From assembly GCA_027448765.1 (NCBI GenBank), contig DAIDMV010000003.1, forward strand, positions 1 to 59,054: 59,054 nt of DNA, read 5' to 3'. Source of the DNA: a bacterium. GTDB lineage: Bacteria; Patescibacteriota; Saccharimonadia; Saccharimonadales; UBA4665. Below the pieces are notes generated by a model. It was not told the origin of the DNA. It saw nothing but the letters and a program-made list of their open reading frames with translations, and ran no database searches. A program made the translations under genes and the position numbers. Below are positions 1 to 30,005 of this stretch, piece after piece (within the stretch, counting starts at the first letter, position 1; every line of letters begins with the position of its first letter).

Positions 1-164
1 AGTAGATCAAAATCTAAGTCAACAGAATTGCGTTCAAGACCATAGAATAGTACCGCCGCGGTACCACCTTTAAATCCGAGATTCGGCGACAATGTCGTAT
101 CTGTGTAGATGTCTTTTAGTATCTGTAGTAAGATGCTTTTGTGTTTTGAGTAGTCGAGTGTCAT
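1..164 (-). CDS. AbiEii-type nucleotidyltransferase toxin, partial (N-terminal 54 residues)
   Basis: Only the first 54 codons lie in the window; the gene continues past the left edge. The translation contains FKGGTAAVLFYGLERNSVDL, followed by DFD. This is the KGG(T)xxxxxxGLxRxSxDLDFD signature of the AbiEii/AbiGii family (nucleotidyltransferase-like toxins of type IV toxin-antitoxin and abortive-infection systems). The start ATG lies one base after the stop codon of the AbiEi-like gene upstream (TAA-g-ATG), so the two are translationally coupled, as is typical of abiE operons. Family members transfer nucleotides to tRNA and block growth, often during phage attack. That role is known for the family and is not visible here. 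Completeness cannot be judged. Confidence 0.85.
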   Translation of the reverse strand, partial: MTLDYSKHKSILLQILKDIYTDTTLSPNLGFKGGTAAVLFYGLERNSVDLDFDL

Positions 165-165
165 C

Positions 166-804
166 TTATCTGTACCCTTGTTGATACTCGTTAACTTTTT
201 TAACCAATCGTTTACTGTGGTAGATGGGCAATATGGTAGCAACCTTTATCCAGTCCAAGGAGTTTAAATTATCGAAATGATAGTCTTTGCTCACGTATAA
301 CCGATCTAAAAAGGCTCGTTCTTTGGTCGCAACTCCATAGCCGTCTGAATGTACAATGCCAGTAGTATCACGCAGGACATACTCCTTCATTCGGATAAAA
401 GAAATTTTCTGATCACTGATCTGAATCTCACGATTAATGTATGAAGCTACAAAGATATTGCTATAGTACTGAAAACTAATGCCTTCGCGTGTCAAAACTG
501 TTTCAAAACTAATGTATGATGGCGTATAAATACGCGTCGCAAGCTCAAGCTGACTGTAATTTTTGTCTTTAACGTAGAAGCCCCGACGAACTCGTAATAA
601 CTTACCAGAAGCGGCGTAACTGTTTAGCCTGCTAGTAATTATTTCTGCTCGCTCTTCACTCCACAATAAAGCTACGTCTTTAGTTGAAAAGACGGTTTGT
701 GGAGATCTGAGTAAAGCTTCTAAATAAGCACCTTTTGTAAGTTTATTGCCCATATTGTTACTGTAACCTAGTTTTAAAGTAGTTTCCAGTCCACATATTA
801 CCAT
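166..804 (-). CDS. AbiEi-like antitoxin / transcriptional regulator of a type IV toxin-antitoxin system
   Basis: A protein of about 212 residues with an N-terminal winged-helix-like region (residues about 20-80, including the RVRRGFY turn typical of AbiEi antitoxin domains) and a C-terminal domain with ATKERAFLDRLY, which matches the 'ATPEKALLDLLY' motif of these proteins. It precedes the AbiEii toxin gene with a one-base gap. AbiEi proteins neutralise the toxin and repress their own operon by binding inverted repeats. An AGAACGTTCT palindrome in the promoter spacer upstream is a candidate operator. The start is uncertain: the ATG at 804 adds 17 residues before a second ATG at 753 (MGNKLTKGAYLE), which better matches the usual family start. 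Neither start has a clear ribosome-binding site. Confidence 0.75.
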   Translation of the reverse strand: MVICGLETTLKLGYSNNMGNKLTKGAYLEALLRSPQTVFSTKDVALLWSEERAEIITSRLNSYAASGKLLRVRRGFYVKDKNYSQLELATRIYTPSYISFETVLTREGISFQYYSNIFVASYINREIQISDQKISFIRMKEYVLRDTTGIVHSDGYGVATKERAFLDRLYVSKDYHFDNLNSLDWIKVATILPIYHSKRLVKKVNEYQQGYR

Positions 805-13495: not shown

Positions 13496-14785
13496 CTAAA
13501 ATAAAAAATCAATTTTATGATCAGCTAAATAAACTAAACAATCGTCTTTAGCGCCTTGTTTTTTCAGTTCATTAACTAAACCTCGTTTGATCAATAAATT
13601 ATGTAATCTATTGACGGCTTCACTGTTATTGAAGTCAGTTTTGTTGACTAAATTTTCTAAATCTTGACCAGTCACTTTAAATTTATTGTTAGCAATCTTA
13701 CTAACCGTAAATTTCCGACTGGTTTGAGGATTTAAATGATCAAAATTAATAATCTTAACAGTTTCTGGGCTTATTTCATCTTTAGGTTGAAGTTGATTAA
13801 TCTTATCAACTTCTCGATAAATTAAATCTTTCAAATCATCCAAACCAAATAAACTTTGAGTCGAAATTTTTAAAATTGATGTTTTAGTTTTTAATTTCTT
13901 TTTAAAACTATTAATGATACGATCGGCTTCTGTTTGACTCAAAAGATCAACTTTATTAAAAACAATAATCTCTGGTTTAACTTTTAAATCAATTTGATAA
14001 GTTTCTAATTCGTGTCTAATAGTTAGATAATCATTAATTGGATCAGATGATGAAATATCTACCACATGAACTAATATTTTAGTTCTTTCTATGTGACGCA
14101 AAAAGTCAAAACCCAAACCCTTACCACTAGAAGCACCGGCTATTAAACCAGGAATATCAGCAATTAAAATAGCTTGACCTCTGAAATCAAGCATTCCTAA
14201 AGATGGTTTAAGCGTCGTAAAAGAATAATCTGCTATCTTCGGTCGTGCTTGACTAATTCGACTAATCAAACTAGACTTACCTACGTTTGGAAGACCAATT
14301 AAACCAACATCAGCTATCATTTTTAATTCTAATTGAAGTTCGATTTTTTGACCCTTTAAACCCTTTTCAGCAAATTTTGGTGCTTGACGAGTTGAGGAAA
14401 TAAAATGAGCATTACCAAAACCACCTTGACCACCTTTAGCAATAATCTCCCTTTGATGATTTTGAACTAAATCAACTAATAATTGGTCTTGGTCATAAAT
14501 TAGAGTACCTATAGGCACTAACACAACCTGGTCCTTACCTCTTTTGCCATGTCTATTGTTAAAGCTGCCTCGGTCACCGTTTTCAGCTTTAATTATTTTT
14601 TTATATCTGAAATTAGCTAACGTATCTTGATTAGCACTTGCTTCAAAAATAATGTCACCACCATCACCACCATCACCACCATCTGGACCACCTTTAGCAA
14701 TAAATTTTTCATGACGAAAACTAATACTACCATCACCACCATCACCGGCTTCAACTGCAATTTTAACTTGATCGACAAAATTCAT
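13496..14785 (-). CDS. obgE: GTPase Obg
   Basis: 429 residues with all three parts. The glycine-rich Obg fold (about 1-157, AGDGGDGSISFRHEKFIAKG and the repeated GGDGGDGGD) is followed by the G domain (G1 GLPNVGKSSLIS, G3 DIPGLIAGASSGKGLG, G4 NKVD). The C-terminal OCT domain (about 335-425, KFTVSKIANNKFKVTG) is retained. Obg acts in late assembly of the 50S subunit and in stress signalling. Its ATG touches the stop of the LysM-CHAP gene (one-base overlap), so the two are co-translated. Confidence 0.96.
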   Translation of the reverse strand: MNFVDQVKIAVEAGDGGDGSISFRHEKFIAKGGPDGGDGGDGGDIIFEASANQDTLANFRYKKIIKAENGDRGSFNNRHGKRGKDQVVLVPIGTLIYDQDQLLVDLVQNHQREIIAKGGQGGFGNAHFISSTRQAPKFAEKGLKGQKIELQLELKMIADVGLIGLPNVGKSSLISRISQARPKIADYSFTTLKPSLGMLDFRGQAILIADIPGLIAGASSGKGLGFDFLRHIERTKILVHVVDISSSDPINDYLTIRHELETYQIDLKVKPEIIVFNKVDLLSQTEADRIINSFKKKLKTKTSILKISTQSLFGLDDLKDLIYREVDKINQLQPKDEISPETVKIINFDHLNPQTSRKFTVSKIANNKFKVTGQDLENLVNKTDFNNSEAVNRLHNLLIKRGLVNELKKQGAKDDCLVYLADHKIDFLF

Positions 14786-15912
14786 TATCTATAAATATAA
14801 TTAGGAAATAAAGAAATCGGGGCTTTTTGCCAATCAACTACATCCCAACCACCTGTTGGAGTTGAATTAGTCGATGAAACTTGACCATAGGAATTCATTT
14901 CAGAAATCCAAATAGTTCCATTAGGATTGATAGCTCGAACAATAGCCACATGTCCTTCACCACCGGCAGCATACGGAGTTTGAGCAATGGCACCAACCAC
15001 TGGTGTTGAACTAACACGCCAACCATCTTGGGCAGCATAATAAGCCCAGGTTGCAGCATTACCCCAATTAGGTGGAACCGCTATTTGAGTAGCAACATAC
15101 CAAGTGCAATAACCAAAATCATAGCCGTTATAACATGAAGCTGAATTACCATAAATATCACTACAAGTCGGCGTTAAATTAACAATTGGAGCAGCTACTG
15201 GTTCTTTACCACCAGGAATAATGATTTGTTCGCCTGGTGTTAAGCCACTAACTTCTGCGTCATTATATGAAATAATATTTTTAGCGCTAGATTGAAATTT
15301 TTGAGCTAAAGATTGTGGTGTATCACCAGCCTGTACCGTATAAACCAAACCGTTCATTGGAGGAATCAATAAAACCTGGCCGGTATTAATATTTTCAGTT
15401 AACAAATTATTAGAAGCCATAATACTACTAACAGACACCCCAAACAATTTTGAAATTTGAGCTAAGGTTTGATTATTTTTAACCGTATAACTAACGATAT
15501 CACTATTAGTTTTTAAGTTAGTTTGAACAATTTGAGGTTTAGACATAACGGCTTGATTAGCCCCAGCCATGGCAATTTCGGCCTGTTGACTTTGAGCCTG
15601 GTTGGCGATGGCAGTTGTCTCTGGTAAATTAGTCATTTTGGCAACCGTTAAAGCAATATCGGCAGAAGACTGTTGATCTAAAGGATCAACGACTGTGGTT
15701 GATGAATTTAGTTGGTTTGATCCACTAACTGCCAATAAATTAGTCTGGTTAGAACTAAAAATAATTAAAACAACCAAAAATATAATCAGAAAATTAATCG
15801 CCAAAATAAAAAACTTTATCTTATTCAGTTTAAAACGGAACCTAATCCTTAATTTCCTAATTGGCCAATCAATTTTACTAGCTTTTTTATTGATTAATGC
15901 TGAACTACTAAT
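14785..15912 (-). CDS. Membrane-anchored LysM-CHAP peptidoglycan hydrolase, probable ATT start
   Basis: Two LysM domains (VSYTVKNNQTLAQISKLFGV; VYTVQAGDTPQSLAQKF) and a C-terminal CHAP domain (YDFGYCTWYVATQ with catalytic Cys; EGHVAIVRAI with His; WISEMNSYG). It should cleave peptide bonds of the wall, the organism's own or a partner's. A reading from the TTG at 15804 gives 339 residues. No ATG or GTG exists upstream in frame. An ATT at 15912 has GGAG six bases before it and a TTGATT-17-TATAAT promoter, and it would add 36 mostly basic residues before the membrane helix, giving sensible N-in topology. I therefore prefer ATT. CHAP and LysM are certain; the start is not. Confidence 0.8.
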   Translation of the reverse strand: MSSSALINKKASKIDWPIRKLRIRFRFKLNKIKFFILAINFLIIFLVVLIIFSSNQTNLLAVSGSNQLNSSTTVVDPLDQQSSADIALTVAKMTNLPETTAIANQAQSQQAEIAMAGANQAVMSKPQIVQTNLKTNSDIVSYTVKNNQTLAQISKLFGVSVSSIMASNNLLTENINTGQVLLIPPMNGLVYTVQAGDTPQSLAQKFQSSAKNIISYNDAEVSGLTPGEQIIIPGGKEPVAAPIVNLTPTCSDIYGNSASCYNGYDFGYCTWYVATQIAVPPNWGNAATWAYYAAQDGWRVSSTPVVGAIAQTPYAAGGEGHVAIVRAINPNGTIWISEMNSYGQVSSTNSTPTGGWDVVDWQKAPISLFPNYIYR

Positions 15913-23673: not shown

Positions 23674-24594
23674 CTAATTTTTATTATTTTGTAACTCTTC
23701 TCGTTGTTTTTCAAGTTGGTGTCTTAAAACATACATCTGGTGTCGGCCACCAATCCAAAAAGTTATAAAAATTAACGGCACCAAAACAATAATCGGCCAC
23801 CAAATGATTTGTGGCTTTTGGGTGGCGGCTAATTGAGCACTTTGATTGGTTGATTTTTTTTGATTTAAGTTAATAACAGCCCCACTAACTACAGCTACAA
23901 CTTCTAAAAAAGCTTGCGTATGATTGGAATCGCTAGCCCTAACTATGACATTATAAACACCTGATTTTGAATAAACATGATTGACACTAAACTGACCAGC
24001 AAATTTTTCCGATAATAATTCAGTTGAAGAGCCATCACCCCAATTAACACTGACAGCATAAGGTCCAAGACCACCAGTAAGACTAAAAGGCCAAGTCAAA
24101 GTTGAACCAGGATTAGAGCCTCTTTCGGCATCATTACTTGTTAAGCTAACTACTGAACCAAATTTAGCTAATTGAATATTATTATAATTAACAATCACAC
24201 TATTGGAATCTGGACCAGCTTCATCTAAATTATTGTAATCTATGGCCACTAAATCGTTTTGACCAGAAAATAAATCAACTGGTATATTGTAACTACCGTT
24301 TTGACAATTAATAGCACCAACAAAAACATTATTAGAAAAAATTTTAATCAATAAATTACTCGGACATAATCCAGTTACATTGACTGGCATGGTAGTAAAA
24401 CTAGCCCCACTAACCGGAGTGGCTATAGTAGCGCTTCGAGAAGGTGGTGGACTAGGAATCGTACCCTGTAAACCAATTGATCCATTTGATGTTTGATGAG
24501 CTGGTATCGTTAAGGCCATGACCTGATATGAATTAAAAAAAACAAGCCCTAATATTAAACTAAAAGATATTAAACTAATTTTAAAATTCAACAT
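23674..24594 (-). CDS. Exported PKD-domain protein with C-terminal membrane anchor
   Basis: 306 residues. Signal peptide (about 1-27, ending VMALT), an Ig-like stretch, then a PKD-like domain (about 160-235: VSVNWGDGSSTELLSEKFAG and FSVNHVYSKSGVYNVIVRASD, matching the WGDGT and HxYxxxGxY motifs). One membrane helix (about 265-283) and a short charged cytoplasmic tail end it. PKD domains serve adhesion or protein contacts at the surface. It is the last gene of the exported cluster 23674-28902 and lies 13 bases upstream of mnmA. Confidence 0.78.
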   Translation of the reverse strand: MLNFKISLISFSLILGLVFFNSYQVMALTIPAHQTSNGSIGLQGTIPSPPPSRSATIATPVSGASFTTMPVNVTGLCPSNLLIKIFSNNVFVGAINCQNGSYNIPVDLFSGQNDLVAIDYNNLDEAGPDSNSVIVNYNNIQLAKFGSVVSLTSNDAERGSNPGSTLTWPFSLTGGLGPYAVSVNWGDGSSTELLSEKFAGQFSVNHVYSKSGVYNVIVRASDSNHTQAFLEVVAVVSGAVINLNQKKSTNQSAQLAATQKPQIIWWPIIVLVPLIFITFWIGGRHQMYVLRHQLEKQREELQNNKN

Positions 24595-24636
24595 TTGTAT
24601 TTAAGTATAAACGAAATAAAAATTTAAAACTATAAA

Positions 24637-25644
24637 CTATCGACGTCTAGACTGTCTAATAATTCGTTCTTTATATGCTTTTAATACTTTCGGAAAAACA
24701 AATATAAAAAATAGAACTAAAATAATAAAAATAATAATTATCATGATTAGAGTAAAGGGAATAACATAAAAGGTAGTTGAAGCTGATAAAGTTTGACCAG
24801 AAGAACCATAACCAAAATTACCTTCAACCGTATAAATACCAAATGAACTCATTTTTTTTAAAGGAATAAAGAATCGTCTAATACTGTTCGGTAAAACATT
24901 ACCTGGAGGAGTAACATTGTTGACGTTGTAGACCGATATAATTTTATTAGAACTAGTTTTTAAAAGTACCTTTCCGAAAGGAGCAACCTGAATATTGCCT
25001 TCATTTTGAAATCTAACCACGGCATTAATATGCTGATTTGATGTAAAGAAATTACTTGGTGTACCATTGCTAACATCAAAACTAGCAATTGATAATTGTT
25101 GTTTAATTTTTCCAGGAACTGTTAATAAAACAATTGATCCAACTGAACCAGATAGACTAACGGTAGTATTTTTACCACCTAAACTAGCCGGACCAAATCT
25201 AACCACTCCATAATAACCACCACCCGGAGTATTACTAGGAATTTTTAGAGTAACTGGAATTTCTTTTTGTTGACCTGCTCGCAAAGTAAAGTTAGGAATT
25301 GGTAAGGCGAACTTTTTTAATCCATGTTTTTCATGAATATTATTACCAATTAAAATTGATGGCTGACCGGTTTCGTTGGAATTAGCCACAAAGTCATTGA
25401 CTACACCAGATAAAGTTTCAGACACAGACGTAATATTAGTCACATATAGATCAATAATTTGCGATTGACCAGGTTTAATAGTCACATCACTCCTTAAAGG
25501 TGAAACTTGAACACCATCAGCCGAAGAAGCTGCATTAGCCGTAGTAATATTAGCTAAACTAAGCCCAATAATCGCACAAATTGACACTAATAAAATTAGC
25601 CAATTTGAATATTGTTTTAACTTGAAAGTTGTTATCCTTATCAC
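24637..25644 (-). CDS. DUF916 / WxL-interacting-protein-like surface protein
   Basis: 335 residues: signal peptide or anchor (about 13-38), two Ig-like beta domains, a C-terminal membrane helix (about 297-320) and a basic tail (RIIRQSRRR). The beta domains contain VSPLRSDVTIKPGQSQIIDL, then IPVTLKIPSNTPGGGYYGVV and NEGNIQVAPFGKVLLK. This order is that of Firmicutes DUF916/DUF3324 proteins, which hold WxL-domain proteins at the cell surface. Three related secreted proteins are encoded just upstream, as in WxL loci. The similarity is judged from motif order only. Confidence 0.65.
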   Translation of the reverse strand: MIRITTFKLKQYSNWLILLVSICAIIGLSLANITTANAASSADGVQVSPLRSDVTIKPGQSQIIDLYVTNITSVSETLSGVVNDFVANSNETGQPSILIGNNIHEKHGLKKFALPIPNFTLRAGQQKEIPVTLKIPSNTPGGGYYGVVRFGPASLGGKNTTVSLSGSVGSIVLLTVPGKIKQQLSIASFDVSNGTPSNFFTSNQHINAVVRFQNEGNIQVAPFGKVLLKTSSNKIISVYNVNNVTPPGNVLPNSIRRFFIPLKKMSSFGIYTVEGNFGYGSSGQTLSASTTFYVIPFTLIMIIIIFIILVLFFIFVFPKVLKAYKERIIRQSRRR

Positions 25645-25685
25645 AATTATTATTATCTTATCAAAAGATAGATGATTTACAAAAT

Positions 25686-26759
25686 TTAAAAATTAGCTAT
25701 ACAAACATAATTAACAGTTGTGACATATATACCCGGCGCCTGATTTTGTGCTACATTGACTAAATAGCTAACTGTATATAGTCGATAGTTTTCAGGCTGA
25801 TTAGAACCAGCAATATTAGAATCATTTTGAAAAGCATAGAAATTTGGCTCATTATAATTTAAAAAAGGTTGGCCGTGCCCTGGGCCGGTTGGGTTTTGGC
25901 CAACTGTTGGCGAGAGATTGGCCACTAAATTTAAGCCGAACTGTGAAACTCCTGGTCTAGACACATTAGCCGGATATAAATTCGGAATTTGATTAATACC
26001 CGAAACTAGTCCTTGACCATAAGTTGAAATAGTATAACCATTTTGACCGTTAGTTCCGACCAGTAACTGAGAAGTAGCTGTTTGCGAAACTTGAGATGAA
26101 AAATTACCAAAGTTAATATTATGTCCAGAACTATCCTGACAATTTAAATTACTAATCTTAACCGCACTGCAAAAATACAAAAAAGGTGGAACTTCAGCGT
26201 TCACAGCTAATTGATTATTCAAAGCATAGGCTAAACCACCATGATTAATAGTAGTTGTTGTCGATGGCGTAGAGCTTGAAAAAGTTTCAATTCTGACATA
26301 TTCAGTGCCTATAGATGAAGCATTGGTAATATTGTTAAAAGTATAACTGACAGATCCTGGTGTAGTTGGACTAGTAGTACGACTAATGACAATTAAATTC
26401 TGAGAGGTGGCTGGTAATAAATTAAAATTAGTTTGTCCAGTTTGAGCAATTAAATTTGCGTTCGCCATATTAATACCACCCGGAATCGTACAGTTATCGT
26501 TAAACAATGGTGAATTTGAGCAAAATTGAAATTCAATCGAGCCAACATTATTAGAAGACGTTAAATTAAAACCAATTTGAAATGTGACATTTGTAGCCGA
26601 AGTTTGACTAGAAGATAATTTAATATAACGATTATTAAGTTCAGCACCATATACCGTGGCAAAATTAAAATTATAGATCAAGACACTAATAAAAATAGCC
26701 AAAACATAAAATATCAATAAAAAAAGTGACTGTTTATGAAATAAATTAGTTAAATTCAT
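25686..26759 (-). CDS. Secreted surface protein, paralogue 1
   Basis: 357 residues with an N-terminal signal or anchor (about 12-35). The body is Ser/Thr/Asn-rich and beta-type with cysteine pairs (FCSNSPLFNDNC; FCSAVKISNLNC). Its end, with SQFGLNLVANLSP and YTVSYLVNVAQNQAPGIYVT, matches the ends of the two neighbouring exported proteins. No sortase motif and no C-terminal anchor, so it must be held by a partner, perhaps the DUF916-type protein 41 bases downstream. No enzymatic motif is visible. Confidence 0.7.
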   Translation of the reverse strand: MNLTNLFHKQSLFLLIFYVLAIFISVLIYNFNFATVYGAELNNRYIKLSSSQTSATNVTFQIGFNLTSSNNVGSIEFQFCSNSPLFNDNCTIPGGINMANANLIAQTGQTNFNLLPATSQNLIVISRTTSPTTPGSVSYTFNNITNASSIGTEYVRIETFSSSTPSTTTTINHGGLAYALNNQLAVNAEVPPFLYFCSAVKISNLNCQDSSGHNINFGNFSSQVSQTATSQLLVGTNGQNGYTISTYGQGLVSGINQIPNLYPANVSRPGVSQFGLNLVANLSPTVGQNPTGPGHGQPFLNYNEPNFYAFQNDSNIAGSNQPENYRLYTVSYLVNVAQNQAPGIYVTTVNYVCIANF

Positions 26760-26782
26760 TCATAATTGCCTAAATACCTAAT

Positions 26783-28072
26783 TTAAAAAGTACCAGTAGC
26801 AATTAAATCCATGTTAGCCGTATAAATACCAGCCGGTGTGGTTAAAGCAGCTGTGGCGGCAAAAGTATAAGCACTGTCGACTCGATAGCACGGTGAAGAT
26901 GTTGAAGCGACAGTATCACCATAAGTTGAATCAACGTTAGTGGCATTCATACCATAATAGACATCACTTGGAGTAGTAGCACCCTGTAAAGGAGTAGTAT
27001 CGTTGCTCGACGAACCACCCGTAAAAGTATAGTTAGATGAGCTATAATATGTTGAAGCTGGTGTTAAAGATCCAACACCATTTGTATCATCTACGCTTGG
27101 ACCAACTGCCATACCAAAATCAGCCGTACCAGCAACAATAGCCGATGCAGTCGAACCAATCGCAGGAATAGCACAAGACGTACCTCCATTAGCACTTAAG
27201 CCACCACAACCAGTACTATTACGCATAGCTATGACCGCTCCACTAGTAGCGTTGGTTGATAACTGAGAATAAACCGTTCCACTATCTACCTGAGTTTGAT
27301 CTAGGATTGGCGTTGGACTACCGTGACCTAGCGTCAGATCTGGTGAAACATTGGCATTAGGATCAGAACAATCATGAGTAGATGTCCAGCTGCTTGGAGC
27401 ATCACCTGAAACACAAAAACTTATTGTTTCTTGAACTCGAGCTGTAATTGATATGATGTTGTTAGTTGATAAAGCAATACCACCATAATCTAAGTAATCA
27501 CCTGGTAAAGTAGCGCTAGAATAAGTACCATAAGTCGTATTAGCAAAAGTATAAATACGAGCATAAAAAGCACCTAAAGTTGATGGATTAGTCACTCCAG
27601 CAATCGTGAAAGTTTGAGCACCTGCCGCTGCTGCAGTCGCATCATAAGCAGCAAATTGAGATGCACTTCCCATGGTTGCACCAGCAGTATTAGTACCGCC
27701 AACTGTCCAACCACTTGAACCAATACCACCAGTAACTGTAGACGAAACTGTTACACCGCTAACACTAAAGCCAGTCGGCGCCGTACAAGTATCAGCGATA
27801 ATTGGACTATTAGAACAAAAATCAATCACAACACTTTCTGCCGCCTGAGTAGTTGTAAAACCAACTTCATAGGAAACATTCGTTCCACTACCAACGCCGG
27901 TTGTAATCGTTCCAGCCGAAACACCCGAATCACTCATAGTAATACTTCGACTAGCCATTTGGGCCGCTAAAACCGGCTGACTACCGAGAAGTGGCATCAG
28001 TAAAGCTGCAACAAAAGCAACCGTTAAAGAAGTATAAAAAAACTTCCTAATTTTTTTAATATTATCTTGCAT
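26783..28072 (-). CDS. Secreted surface protein, paralogue 2, Ser/Thr/Gly/Ala-rich
   Basis: 429 residues. A clear signal peptide (about 1-37, LLMPLLGSQPVLAA) is followed by a long Ser/Thr/Ala/Gly-rich beta region. DFGMAVGPSV and the closing TTPAGIYTANMDLIATGTF align with the end of the other two paralogues. FCSNSPIIADTC parallels FCSNSPLFNDNC of paralogue 1, so these two are closest. A strong ribosome-binding site (AGGAGAGAAC-ATG) suggests high expression, and the composition suits an abundant surface-layer or pilus-like component. No anchor is seen. Confidence 0.72.
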   Translation of the reverse strand: MQDNIKKIRKFFYTSLTVAFVAALLMPLLGSQPVLAAQMASRSITMSDSGVSAGTITTGVGSGTNVSYEVGFTTTQAAESVVIDFCSNSPIIADTCTAPTGFSVSGVTVSSTVTGGIGSSGWTVGGTNTAGATMGSASQFAAYDATAAAAGAQTFTIAGVTNPSTLGAFYARIYTFANTTYGTYSSATLPGDYLDYGGIALSTNNIISITARVQETISFCVSGDAPSSWTSTHDCSDPNANVSPDLTLGHGSPTPILDQTQVDSGTVYSQLSTNATSGAVIAMRNSTGCGGLSANGGTSCAIPAIGSTASAIVAGTADFGMAVGPSVDDTNGVGSLTPASTYYSSSNYTFTGGSSSNDTTPLQGATTPSDVYYGMNATNVDSTYGDTVASTSSPCYRVDSAYTFAATAALTTPAGIYTANMDLIATGTF

Positions 28073-28158
28073 GTTCTCTCCTGTGTTTGTGATTTTTGTT
28101 TTTTACACTGAATTAAAGATATCATATTTTTTTTTTAAAACAAAGTAGTTATCCACAA

Positions 28159-28902
28159 CTAGTAAGTTGAAGTAGCTACTAAATCATCATTAAAAGTATA
28201 TACACCACCTGGCGTTATGTGTGAAATGTTAAAAATATAAGAAATAGTATAAAGTGTTTGGCCACTACTTTGATCTGAATATGCAATAGTTGAATTAGGC
28301 TGATACATAAAAAGATTAGGTGAATCGTAATTACTAGAAACTTGACCATAACTAAAAGCACTACTTGGTAATTGACTAGGATTAGCACCAAAACTAATTG
28401 GTGAGGTATTGGCAACTAAATTCATACCAAATTGTTCTAAACCCGGCTGAGCGGTAGTTGGCGATGTTAAAGGTGTTAAAGTAGCCGAATTATTAGACGG
28501 TGGCGGAGAAACTGTTTCCACCTGATAACCACTAGCTAAATAACTTGAAACACTAAACTGAGCGGTGGTAGTAGTAGTTGATTTAGTGCTTAAAGTGCCT
28601 AAATCAACACTAGTATTGTTGACATTAATAGAAATAAACGGCGATCGATTAGTGTTAAAACCCGCTTGAGCTTGATAATTAGAACTTTTAGTATTGCCGA
28701 CCGCTATTTCTCCAGCAGAAGTTTTAGCACAATAATTAGTTGAACATTGGTTTAAATTACCCCCAGCTCCAAAAAAAACATTATGTATCTGATAATTAGT
28801 CGATGAAGCCGACTCGGCTTGAACTAAATTTGGCAATAAAAAAAACAACAAAGAAATAACTAGGCAACTCAAAAAAACAAAAAATTTATTTTTTATAAAC
28901 AT
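28159..28902 (-). CDS. Secreted surface protein, paralogue 3
   Basis: 247 residues, signal peptide about 1-29 (LLPNLVQAES). Contains EQFGMNLVANTSP and the C-terminal YTISYIFNISHITPGGVYTF, shared with the other two paralogues. The N-terminal half differs: it has one cysteine pair (CSTNYC) and lacks the FCSNSP motif. It ends 86 bases upstream of paralogue 2 and starts opposite the plus-strand fibre-like gene, with a 68-base divergent gap. Confidence 0.7.
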   Translation of the reverse strand: MFIKNKFFVFLSCLVISLLFFLLPNLVQAESASSTNYQIHNVFFGAGGNLNQCSTNYCAKTSAGEIAVGNTKSSNYQAQAGFNTNRSPFISINVNNTSVDLGTLSTKSTTTTTAQFSVSSYLASGYQVETVSPPPSNNSATLTPLTSPTTAQPGLEQFGMNLVANTSPISFGANPSQLPSSAFSYGQVSSNYDSPNLFMYQPNSTIAYSDQSSGQTLYTISYIFNISHITPGGVYTFNDDLVATSTY

Positions 28903-28970: not shown

Positions 28971-30001
28971 ATGCCAGACAATGAAACAAAACCAGAAGAA
29001 ATAGATTTAGAATCTAACAGTTCAAGTCTTGAAGATAATGTTATCGATGCTACGGGTGGTAATGATTTAGAAAGTTCAAGTCTTGAAGATAACAACAATC
29101 AAAACACTCCAGCTAACGACCCGTCAAAAAATCCGGCAACCTTAAACTCTAAAAATAAACCAAAATTAAAGGATAAATTAGCTAAATTTAATATTTATTT
29201 AATATTATTTGGTTTAGTAGTGGTTGTAACTATTGTAGTAGTTGTGATTACTTATTTACAGAGCCAAACTCCTGTTCAAAATTCAACTAGTCTTAAAAAT
29301 CAAAACCTGACTCAAAATAGTCTCAAACAGTTAGCCGCTAATGATTCAACAGTTGGAGCTCCTAAACAAGATTTAAACGTTGAAGCTAATGCTGTTTTTG
29401 CTGGTCGAGTTTTAATCAGCAATGGCCTTCAAGTAGCCGGAGGCGAACAAATTAATGGCGGACTGGGTTTAACAAGCTTAACCGTTAAAGGTACTGGTAA
29501 TTTTCAACAGTTAAACAATAGTGGTAATTTATCAGTTAATGGTACTACAGCCCTACAAGGTTCGACCACTATTTCAGCTAGTTTACAAGTTAATGGTAAT
29601 GCTAACTTTAACGGCAATGTTTCTTCTCCTCAAATAACTACTAACTCTCTACAACTCAGTGGCAATCTCAATATCTCACACCACATTAACGTAACTGGTC
29701 CTTCACCGAATTCCAAGACCTTGAGTGCTATTGGTTCTGGTGGCACATCCACAGTCAATGGTACTGATACGGCTGGTAATATTAATATTAATACCGGCAC
29801 TAATCCAAGTGCAGGTTGCTTAATTACAGTAAATTTTAATATACCCTATAGCTCAACACCGTACATCGTTGTTTCACCGATTGGATTAGCTAGTAGTTCA
29901 CTTCATTATTATCTGGAACGGAATCAAACTTCTTTCAACGTTTGTTCTGGTTCAACGCCACCGAGTCAAGCTAATATTAGTTTTGATTATTTTATTATCG
30001 G

Positions 30002-30005
<4 letters not shown>
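28971..30005 (+). CDS. Fibre-like exported protein with N-terminal membrane anchor
   Basis: 344 residues. The cytoplasmic N-terminus (about 75 residues) is acidic and carries a direct repeat of SSLEDN. A membrane helix follows (about 77-97). Outside, residues 140-240 hold repeats of the type LSVNGTTALQGSTTISASLQ and NGNANFNGNV, a beta-solenoid pattern like phage tail fibres and common in CPR proteins. A C-terminal globular part (about 245-344) has two cysteines. It may serve as an adhesin. It ends overlapping the epsilon gene by four bases on the opposite strand. Confidence 0.65.

Follow-up and report, generated by a model that had tools for sequence, protein, structure and literature searches.

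WxL-interacting proteins (WxLIP), which hold WxL proteins on the surface of Gram-positive cells, consist in Firmicutes of a DUF916 domain, a DUF3324 domain and a transmembrane (TM) helix. A hairpin of WxLIP that is otherwise unstructured has been predicted to become ordered and to complete the β-sandwich of a WxL protein in parallel (PMC10599100), and the PDB entry 9i25 is titled as a WxLIP bound to a long WxL protein. Such predicted completion of one protein's sandwich by a hairpin of another resembles donor-strand complementation. The pilins of chaperone-usher systems carry a glycine 14 residues from their ends, alternating hydrophobic residues and a near-terminal aromatic residue.

Type IV pili aside, little is known of how host-dependent CPR bacteria assemble their surface fibres. 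NCBIfam release 20 (June 2026) already names a Pam pilus system, with the models NF058578 for PamR, NF058579 for PamT and NF058581 for the pilin C-terminal domain (Pam_pilin_C). A search of a limited literature collection on the Pam pilus listed no paper describing the system, and PMC12206443, searched by text, gave no mention of WxL, fimbriae, or non-type-IV or other pili.

A Pam locus in Saccharibacteria

The locus described here occupies positions 23674-28902 of the Saccharibacteria contig DAIDMV010000003.1. The whole stretch of this contig that was analysed, 59,054 nucleotides in length, is called the window. Five open reading frames on the minus strand were confirmed in this interval, and the locus belongs to the already named Pam pilus system of CPR bacteria. 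PamT (28159..28902, minus strand) joins an N-terminal domain of its own to a pilin C-terminal domain, matches its equivalog model NF058579 with 299.5 bits (cut-off 240) and is likely to be the tip or terminal subunit. Two pilin-type genes follow on the same strand. PilB (25686..26759), a Pam pilin with two β-sandwich domains, matches NF058581 with 143.3 bits, well above the cut-off of 55 and close to the 147 bits reached in PamT. PilA (26783..28072) is a divergent paralogue that reaches 34.3 bits with this model, below the cut-off, and has the same gene order in relatives and the same C-terminal motif as PilB. Next to PilB lies the gene of a WxLIP-like protein, labelled D916 (24637..25644, minus strand). 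The last gene encodes PamR (23674..24594, minus strand; NF058578, an equivalog model, 371.3 bits, cut-off 300), a secreted PKD/RbmA-like protein. It had been annotated at the outset as a PKD protein with an anchor, a description borne out by a TM helix at the C terminus, with its hydropathy maximum at residue 263, and by a PKD match just below the Pfam cut-off (22.5 versus 23.5).

A divergent gene on the plus strand (28971..30005) precedes PamT. Its product has an acidic N-terminal segment, a TM helix recognized by hydropathy, a bactofilin-like stretch (22.6 bits, below the Bactofilin cut-off of 27.9) and a C-terminal domain. Homologues lie divergently upstream of all 57 of 57 PamT genes in relatives, and they stay in place at loci where the ATP synthase/mnmA neighbours were undetected (L082, L083, L085, L088, L089, L096 and L117; L numbers denote loci in our scans). 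This gene is probably a partner of the Pam locus. Elsewhere in the window, the product of positions 14785-15804 combines LysM and CHAP and is likely to be a hydrolase of the cell wall. Its gene lies beside three others, of which one encodes a GTPase of the Obg type, one a protein of the UvrA type, and the third is YceG-like.

The pilins and their shared C-terminal domain

PamT, PilA and PilB each have one N-terminal hydrophobic segment and no second one, and none of the three contains an LPxTG motif, in agreement with the initial annotation, which had described these paralogues as secreted proteins lacking an anchor or sortase signal. Profile-profile comparison shows the C-terminal domain to be common to the PilB and PamT families (Prob 99.9, E 5.7e-34), and the Pam pilin domain is matched by 69 of the 69 homologues of the 25686-26759 protein. 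Judged by these Pam family matches, the three secreted paralogues are pilus subunits, and none of the sequence tests described below makes them WxL proteins. A C-terminal block common to all three had also been reported. The domain is indeed shared and its terminal pattern is present in every one, but the first motif is exact in only two of them (QFGLNLVAN and QFGMNLVAN, with DFGMAVGP in the third) and the domain match of PilA is below the cut-off.

All three paralogues end in F or Y and have a glycine 14 residues before the end. In PilB, the terminal strand motif with Gly at C-14, Tyr at C-12 and a terminal Phe is encoded at 25689..25733 on the minus strand. Among 234 pilin-type proteins from 80 related loci, from which proteins cut by a contig end had been removed, all 234 terminate in F or Y, 232 have Gly at C-14 and 233 have Y or F at C-12. 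Control proteins of the same 80 loci end mostly in R or K or in polar residues. The pattern is looser in 22 tails from across the phylum, picked by their match to the Saccharibacteria profile (F or Y last in 16, Gly at C-14 in 18, Y or F at C-12 in 19), and this was counted against the proposal made below.

The structure model of PilB consists of two β-sandwich domains joined by a low-confidence linker (pLDDT 92.5, pTM 0.51). Among the best 50 fold matches listed, the first domain resembles YcnI (Z 9.9), SpaD (8.7) and BslA (8.3). For the C-terminal domain, the TLP-1a filament (PDB 9ikj) ranks first, with Z 8.1 and 18% identity across 133 residues, a borderline value that was counted against the proposal made below; the CfaE adhesin has Z 7.0-7.1, in the range under 8 where a match may mean merely a common arrangement.

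A membrane-anchored homologue of WxLIP

The WxLIP-like protein has a signal helix, two Ig domains (approximately residues 44-176 and 183-296), a C-terminal TM helix and a basic tail; its signal peptide, paired Ig domains and C-terminal helix are all present according to hydropathy, model and fold match. It is a homologue of WxLIP. Its family aligns with nine Firmicutes WxLIP proteins, taken from plasmids, over 297 columns that span both Ig domains and the TM helix (hhalign Prob 99.1, E 8.6e-19). The Pfam model WxLIP_PGBD is below threshold in the 24637-25644 protein itself (18.3 versus 27.3 bits), and it matches 77 of 78 homologues at E values up to 0.1, the best being 2.4e-11. The Pam models match none of these 78. 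The initial annotation had called this a DUF916-type protein with a C-terminal membrane helix, and had staked its reading in part on the protein grouping with DUF916; both the grouping and the helix are found.

Structure comparison agrees with this relationship. The closest folds to the AlphaFold2 model (pLDDT 89.6, pTM 0.79) are the solved WxLIP structures of E. faecium, 9i25 (Z 14.8, 230 residues) and 9i1y (Z 14.2, 229 residues), with an rmsd of about 7 that we put down to a differing or bending angle between the domains. Single-domain matches such as factor XIII come next at Z of about 12, and then CfaA, CsuC, CupB2, FimC and RbmA at Z 10-11. Foldseek agrees on the first three matches. The NQIDKxxxYFDLK segment conserved in WxLIP was sought as well: its YFDL is found in 0 of 78 homologues, and a loosened form in seven of the nine Firmicutes proteins.

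The last 15 residues carry a net charge of at least +2 in 101 of 104 WxLIP-like proteins. This basic tail fits anchoring in the bacterium's own membrane, contrary to PMC10599100, where the helix of WxLIP is suggested to insert into the membrane of the host. Residues 162-171 (25132..25161, minus strand) alternate as V-x-L-x-A-S-V-x-S-L. Across the 78 homologues, hydrophobic residues are found at V162 in 100%, L164 in 99%, A166 in 72%, V168 in 92% and L171 in 100%, and the positions between them are mostly S, N or T. By fold, this candidate donor strand would correspond to strand G1 of the chaperones in chaperone-usher systems. Model confidence is low in the loop that leads to strand 169-176, with pLDDT blocks of 69 and 67 at 151-170. 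A counterpart was sought for the chaperone-usher lysine K112, and no lysine near 175-181 (179 and 181 included) is conserved in the 78 homologues, which was likewise counted against the proposal. R51 is conserved in 64 of 78 and, from the fold-aligned ranges 44..290 and 1..204, might match R8 of FimC.

A plasmid record named Klebsiella pneumoniae (CP069367.1:102183-102471) holds a 73.5% match to a WxLIP stretch of Enterococcus faecium, probably through contamination or misassembly.

Gene order and co-occurrence

In a scan of named genomes, 80 loci were retained out of 98 relatives. Almost all are titled Saccharibacteria, complete genomes (L063, L103 and L129) are among them, and their gene order was read with home-made profiles. 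The assignment of the window to a CPR bacterium, made at the outset, agrees with the titles of the 80 relatives, which read Saccharibacteria, Saccharimonadia or Saccharimonadales, Nanosynbacter, Patescibacteria or simply bacterium in every case except one 'Chloroflexi' MAG. The Pam locus on that contig (L095, 'Chloroflexi bacterium PMG_070') is typical of Saccharibacteria, and the contig is probably mislabelled or from a mixed bin.

The commonest order is PamT, PilA, PilB, WxLIP-like gene, PamR, mnmA and alaS, with the divergent membrane gene before PamT. A large clade has a second pair of pilin and WxLIP-like genes after PamR, L088 and L096 have the order PilA, WxLIP-like gene, PilB and PamR, and up to five copies of PilA are found in L121. 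The adjacency of the DUF916-type gene to the secreted paralogues, which had been pointed out for the window, recurs in relatives: a pilin-type gene lies directly upstream of 99 of 104 WxLIP-like genes, the remainder standing at a contig end (3) or after another gene (2). PamR is the downstream neighbour of 71 of the 104.

PamT and the WxLIP-like protein occur in an identical set of 16 of 21 genomes, some matches being weak and from a second locus. PamR is also found in 16 of 21, in a slightly different set (a fragment at a contig edge in G002, none in G001). Sortase genes are present in 21 of 21 genomes, including those lacking PamT, and were counted against the proposal as an alternative route of anchoring; the sortase gene of the window genome is on another contig (G000:C2) than the Pam locus.

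Of 116 genomes from across the phylum, 33 have the pilin domain and 57 the WxLIP-like family. Both are present in 31, the pilin domain only in 2, the WxLIP-like family only in 26 and neither in 57. The WxLIP-like family is found in 31 of the 33 pilin-bearing genomes versus 26 of the 83 others (Fisher p 2.5e-10, with genomes counted as independent and kinship ignored). Of the 72 pilin matches in these 33 genomes, 30 (in 25 genomes) are followed on the same strand by a WxLIP-like match within 500 bases; at this range, none has one upstream or on the opposite strand. Widening the range to 1500 bases gives 38 downstream and 3 upstream. The 26 of 57 WxLIP-like genomes that have no detectable Pam pilin domain were counted against a chaperone-pilus explanation.

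A second type of locus was observed in L044:4747-9008, L045:3997-9715, L046:4123-8415, L047:4225-9136 and L049:3315-7435. It encodes a protein with a PamT-like N terminus, a second secreted protein, two or three tandem WxLIP-like proteins and, in many cases, a long protein. The two proteins that come first end in F or Y with a Tyr 12 residues before the end, and the locus probably encodes another pilus of the same kind. The 909-residue protein that follows it at L044:9098-11827 reaches 55.8 bits with Bdello_MAT_N, a model for the mosaic adhesive trimer fibre, slightly short of the cut-off of 60.

A proposed model for usher-less assembly

We consider it fairly probable that the Pam locus builds a pilus without an usher, in which a membrane-anchored chaperone of the WxLIP type captures the subunits by donor-strand complementation. 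PamT and the two pilin-type proteins are exported by their signal peptides, and in each of them the chain finishes with the last strand of a C-terminal β-sandwich. The WxLIP-like protein, held in the cell membrane by the helix at its C terminus and exposing its domains on the outside, probably assists in folding, assembling or holding the subunits. It is likely to bind the C-terminal domain of a pilin and to complete this domain with strand 162-171. The conserved alternation of this strand and the exactness of the pilin C-terminal motif support the donor-strand view. The captured subunit would then be passed to the growing fibre, or be held by the WxLIP-like protein as a base. A weak candidate for the strand donated to the next subunit is the segment between the two domains of PilB (residues 184-192; 26184..26210, minus strand), which has alternating hydrophobics, a pLDDT under 50 at 184-188 and unexceptional conservation (rank 138 of 311). 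PamR may form an anchored base and PamT the tip, and the fibre might serve attachment to the host. Gene content, homology to WxLIP, likeness of folds and the pairing of genes are observed and count in favour of this model, whose binding step, strand exchange, roles of base and tip, and attachment to the host are inferred. No usher would be needed because there is no outer membrane, and usher genes were found in 0 of 21 genomes with a search whose control was detected in E. coli.

Alternative explanations

The pilin C-terminal domain could instead be a true but remote WxL domain in which W is replaced by Y, so that the pair would be a CPR branch of WxL and WxLIP. In its favour, the partner is a WxLIP homologue. 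When sets of 10 and 16 WxL proteins were compared by hhalign with pilins from Saccharibacteria, from across the phylum or from both, the last pilin strand was found to align with the second WxL motif; the phylum-wide alignment, with a score of 24.5, is co-linear over both motifs. The alignment shrinks to the last strand when 16 WxL proteins are used, and the GxYxxx pattern of this strand is also common in Ig-like domains. The scores (23.6-24.5) are reached by block-permuted profiles, whose maxima were 27.0 and 24.8 in 120 permutations at each of two block sizes, and WxL homology of the domain is therefore not claimed. Pfam WxL (PF13731) is found in 0 of 21 genomes at E values up to 1, with its control detected in Lactococcus, and is not among the 19 families found in the 69 pilins. 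No window paralogue has two W-x-L motifs, and two or more occur in 8 of 235 relatives. By these sequence tests, the WxL-like reading of the paralogues in the initial annotation finds no support. No WxL chain is among the best 50 fold matches listed for the pilin model, a listing that carries no weight against a WxL fold. Its analogy with the WxL system survives for the partner, a WxLIP homologue, and fails for the paralogues, whose family is that of the Pam pilins. Of the two halves of the WxL system, profile comparison shows homology for the partner; for the WxL half, similarity does not rise significantly above permuted controls. We regard a remote WxL identity as unlikely.

Two other explanations accept the family assignments and question the mechanism. 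The WxLIP-like protein might be a static holder of secreted proteins with the C-terminal domain at the membrane or wall, as in WxL-like surface display; there would be no fibre, and the name 'pilus' would have been transferred from a relative. The homology to WxLIP speaks for this. Outside the class, moreover, the C-terminal domain often occurs in very long open frames (from about 960 to 5552 aa). In ten such loci from distant CPR (L140-L149), a WxLIP-like gene is directly next in L140, L141, L142, L143 and L146, comes after one small open reading frame in L145, and does not follow in L144 (contig end), L147, L148 and L149. It is possible that these frames are giant adhesins displayed by the same device, and large WxL adhesins are likewise found near WxLIP. 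However, NCBIfam names PamR, PamT and the pilin model as parts of a pilus, and small two-domain subunits in tandem, such as the PilA copies of L121, resemble the subunits of a polymer. A holder that makes no fibre seems rather doubtful, if a little less so than a remote WxL domain. It is more improbable still that co-inheritance alone joins the pilins to the WxLIP-like protein, without contact between them, and that PamR or a sortase is the true assembly partner. PamR is near, in the 71 cases above as the downstream neighbour, and every one of the 21 genomes has a sortase, but the order of pilin then WxLIP-like gene is kept where there is a second pair or where PamR has moved (the L087-L129 clade, L088, L096 and L048), and the window paralogues offer sortase no LPxTG.

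A broader reading is conceivable, although we hold it with some doubt. WxLIP-type proteins may be the monoderm counterpart of the chaperones of chaperone-usher systems: anchored donor-strand chaperones, often one per secreted partner, whose task would be to build pili without an usher in CPR bacteria and, elsewhere in the phylum, to hold giant adhesins with the C-terminal domain. If so, WxL display in Firmicutes and Pam pili in CPR bacteria would be two branches of one principle of surface assembly. The tie between Pam and WxLIP gives an unnamed gene a testable job, and one experiment could address both WxL display and Pam pili. TM7i (L129), a named strain with a complete genome, carries a Pam locus.

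Comparison with known systems

The TLP-1a filament (9ikj), which is presumably linked with the CryoSeek paper, is like the Pam pilins in being the best fold match of their C-terminal domain. It differs in sequence, since the pilin and PamT profiles match no PDB chain at E values up to 10. Chaperone-usher systems (CfaA, CsuC and FimC) share with the WxLIP-like protein a chaperone fold of two Ig domains, matched at Z 10-11 over both, and their pilins resemble the Pam pilins in the glycine and aromatic residues near the C terminus. Unlike them, the locus described here has a membrane-anchored WxLIP-like protein, two-domain pilins and no usher.

The WxLIP proteins of Firmicutes are homologous to the WxLIP-like protein and have an identical layout, and in function the likeness extends to the secreted partner, whose gene is mostly directly upstream in both (the partner follows in L132 and L136). 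In contrast, the partners here are Pam pilins free of WxL motifs, and the YFDL signature is missing from all 78 homologues. Within the Pam system itself, the locus departs from the curated models in that PilA (26783-28072) falls below its cut-off and the WxLIP-like gene has no Pam model, but three of the five proteins encoded here exceed curated cut-offs and the operon is conserved.
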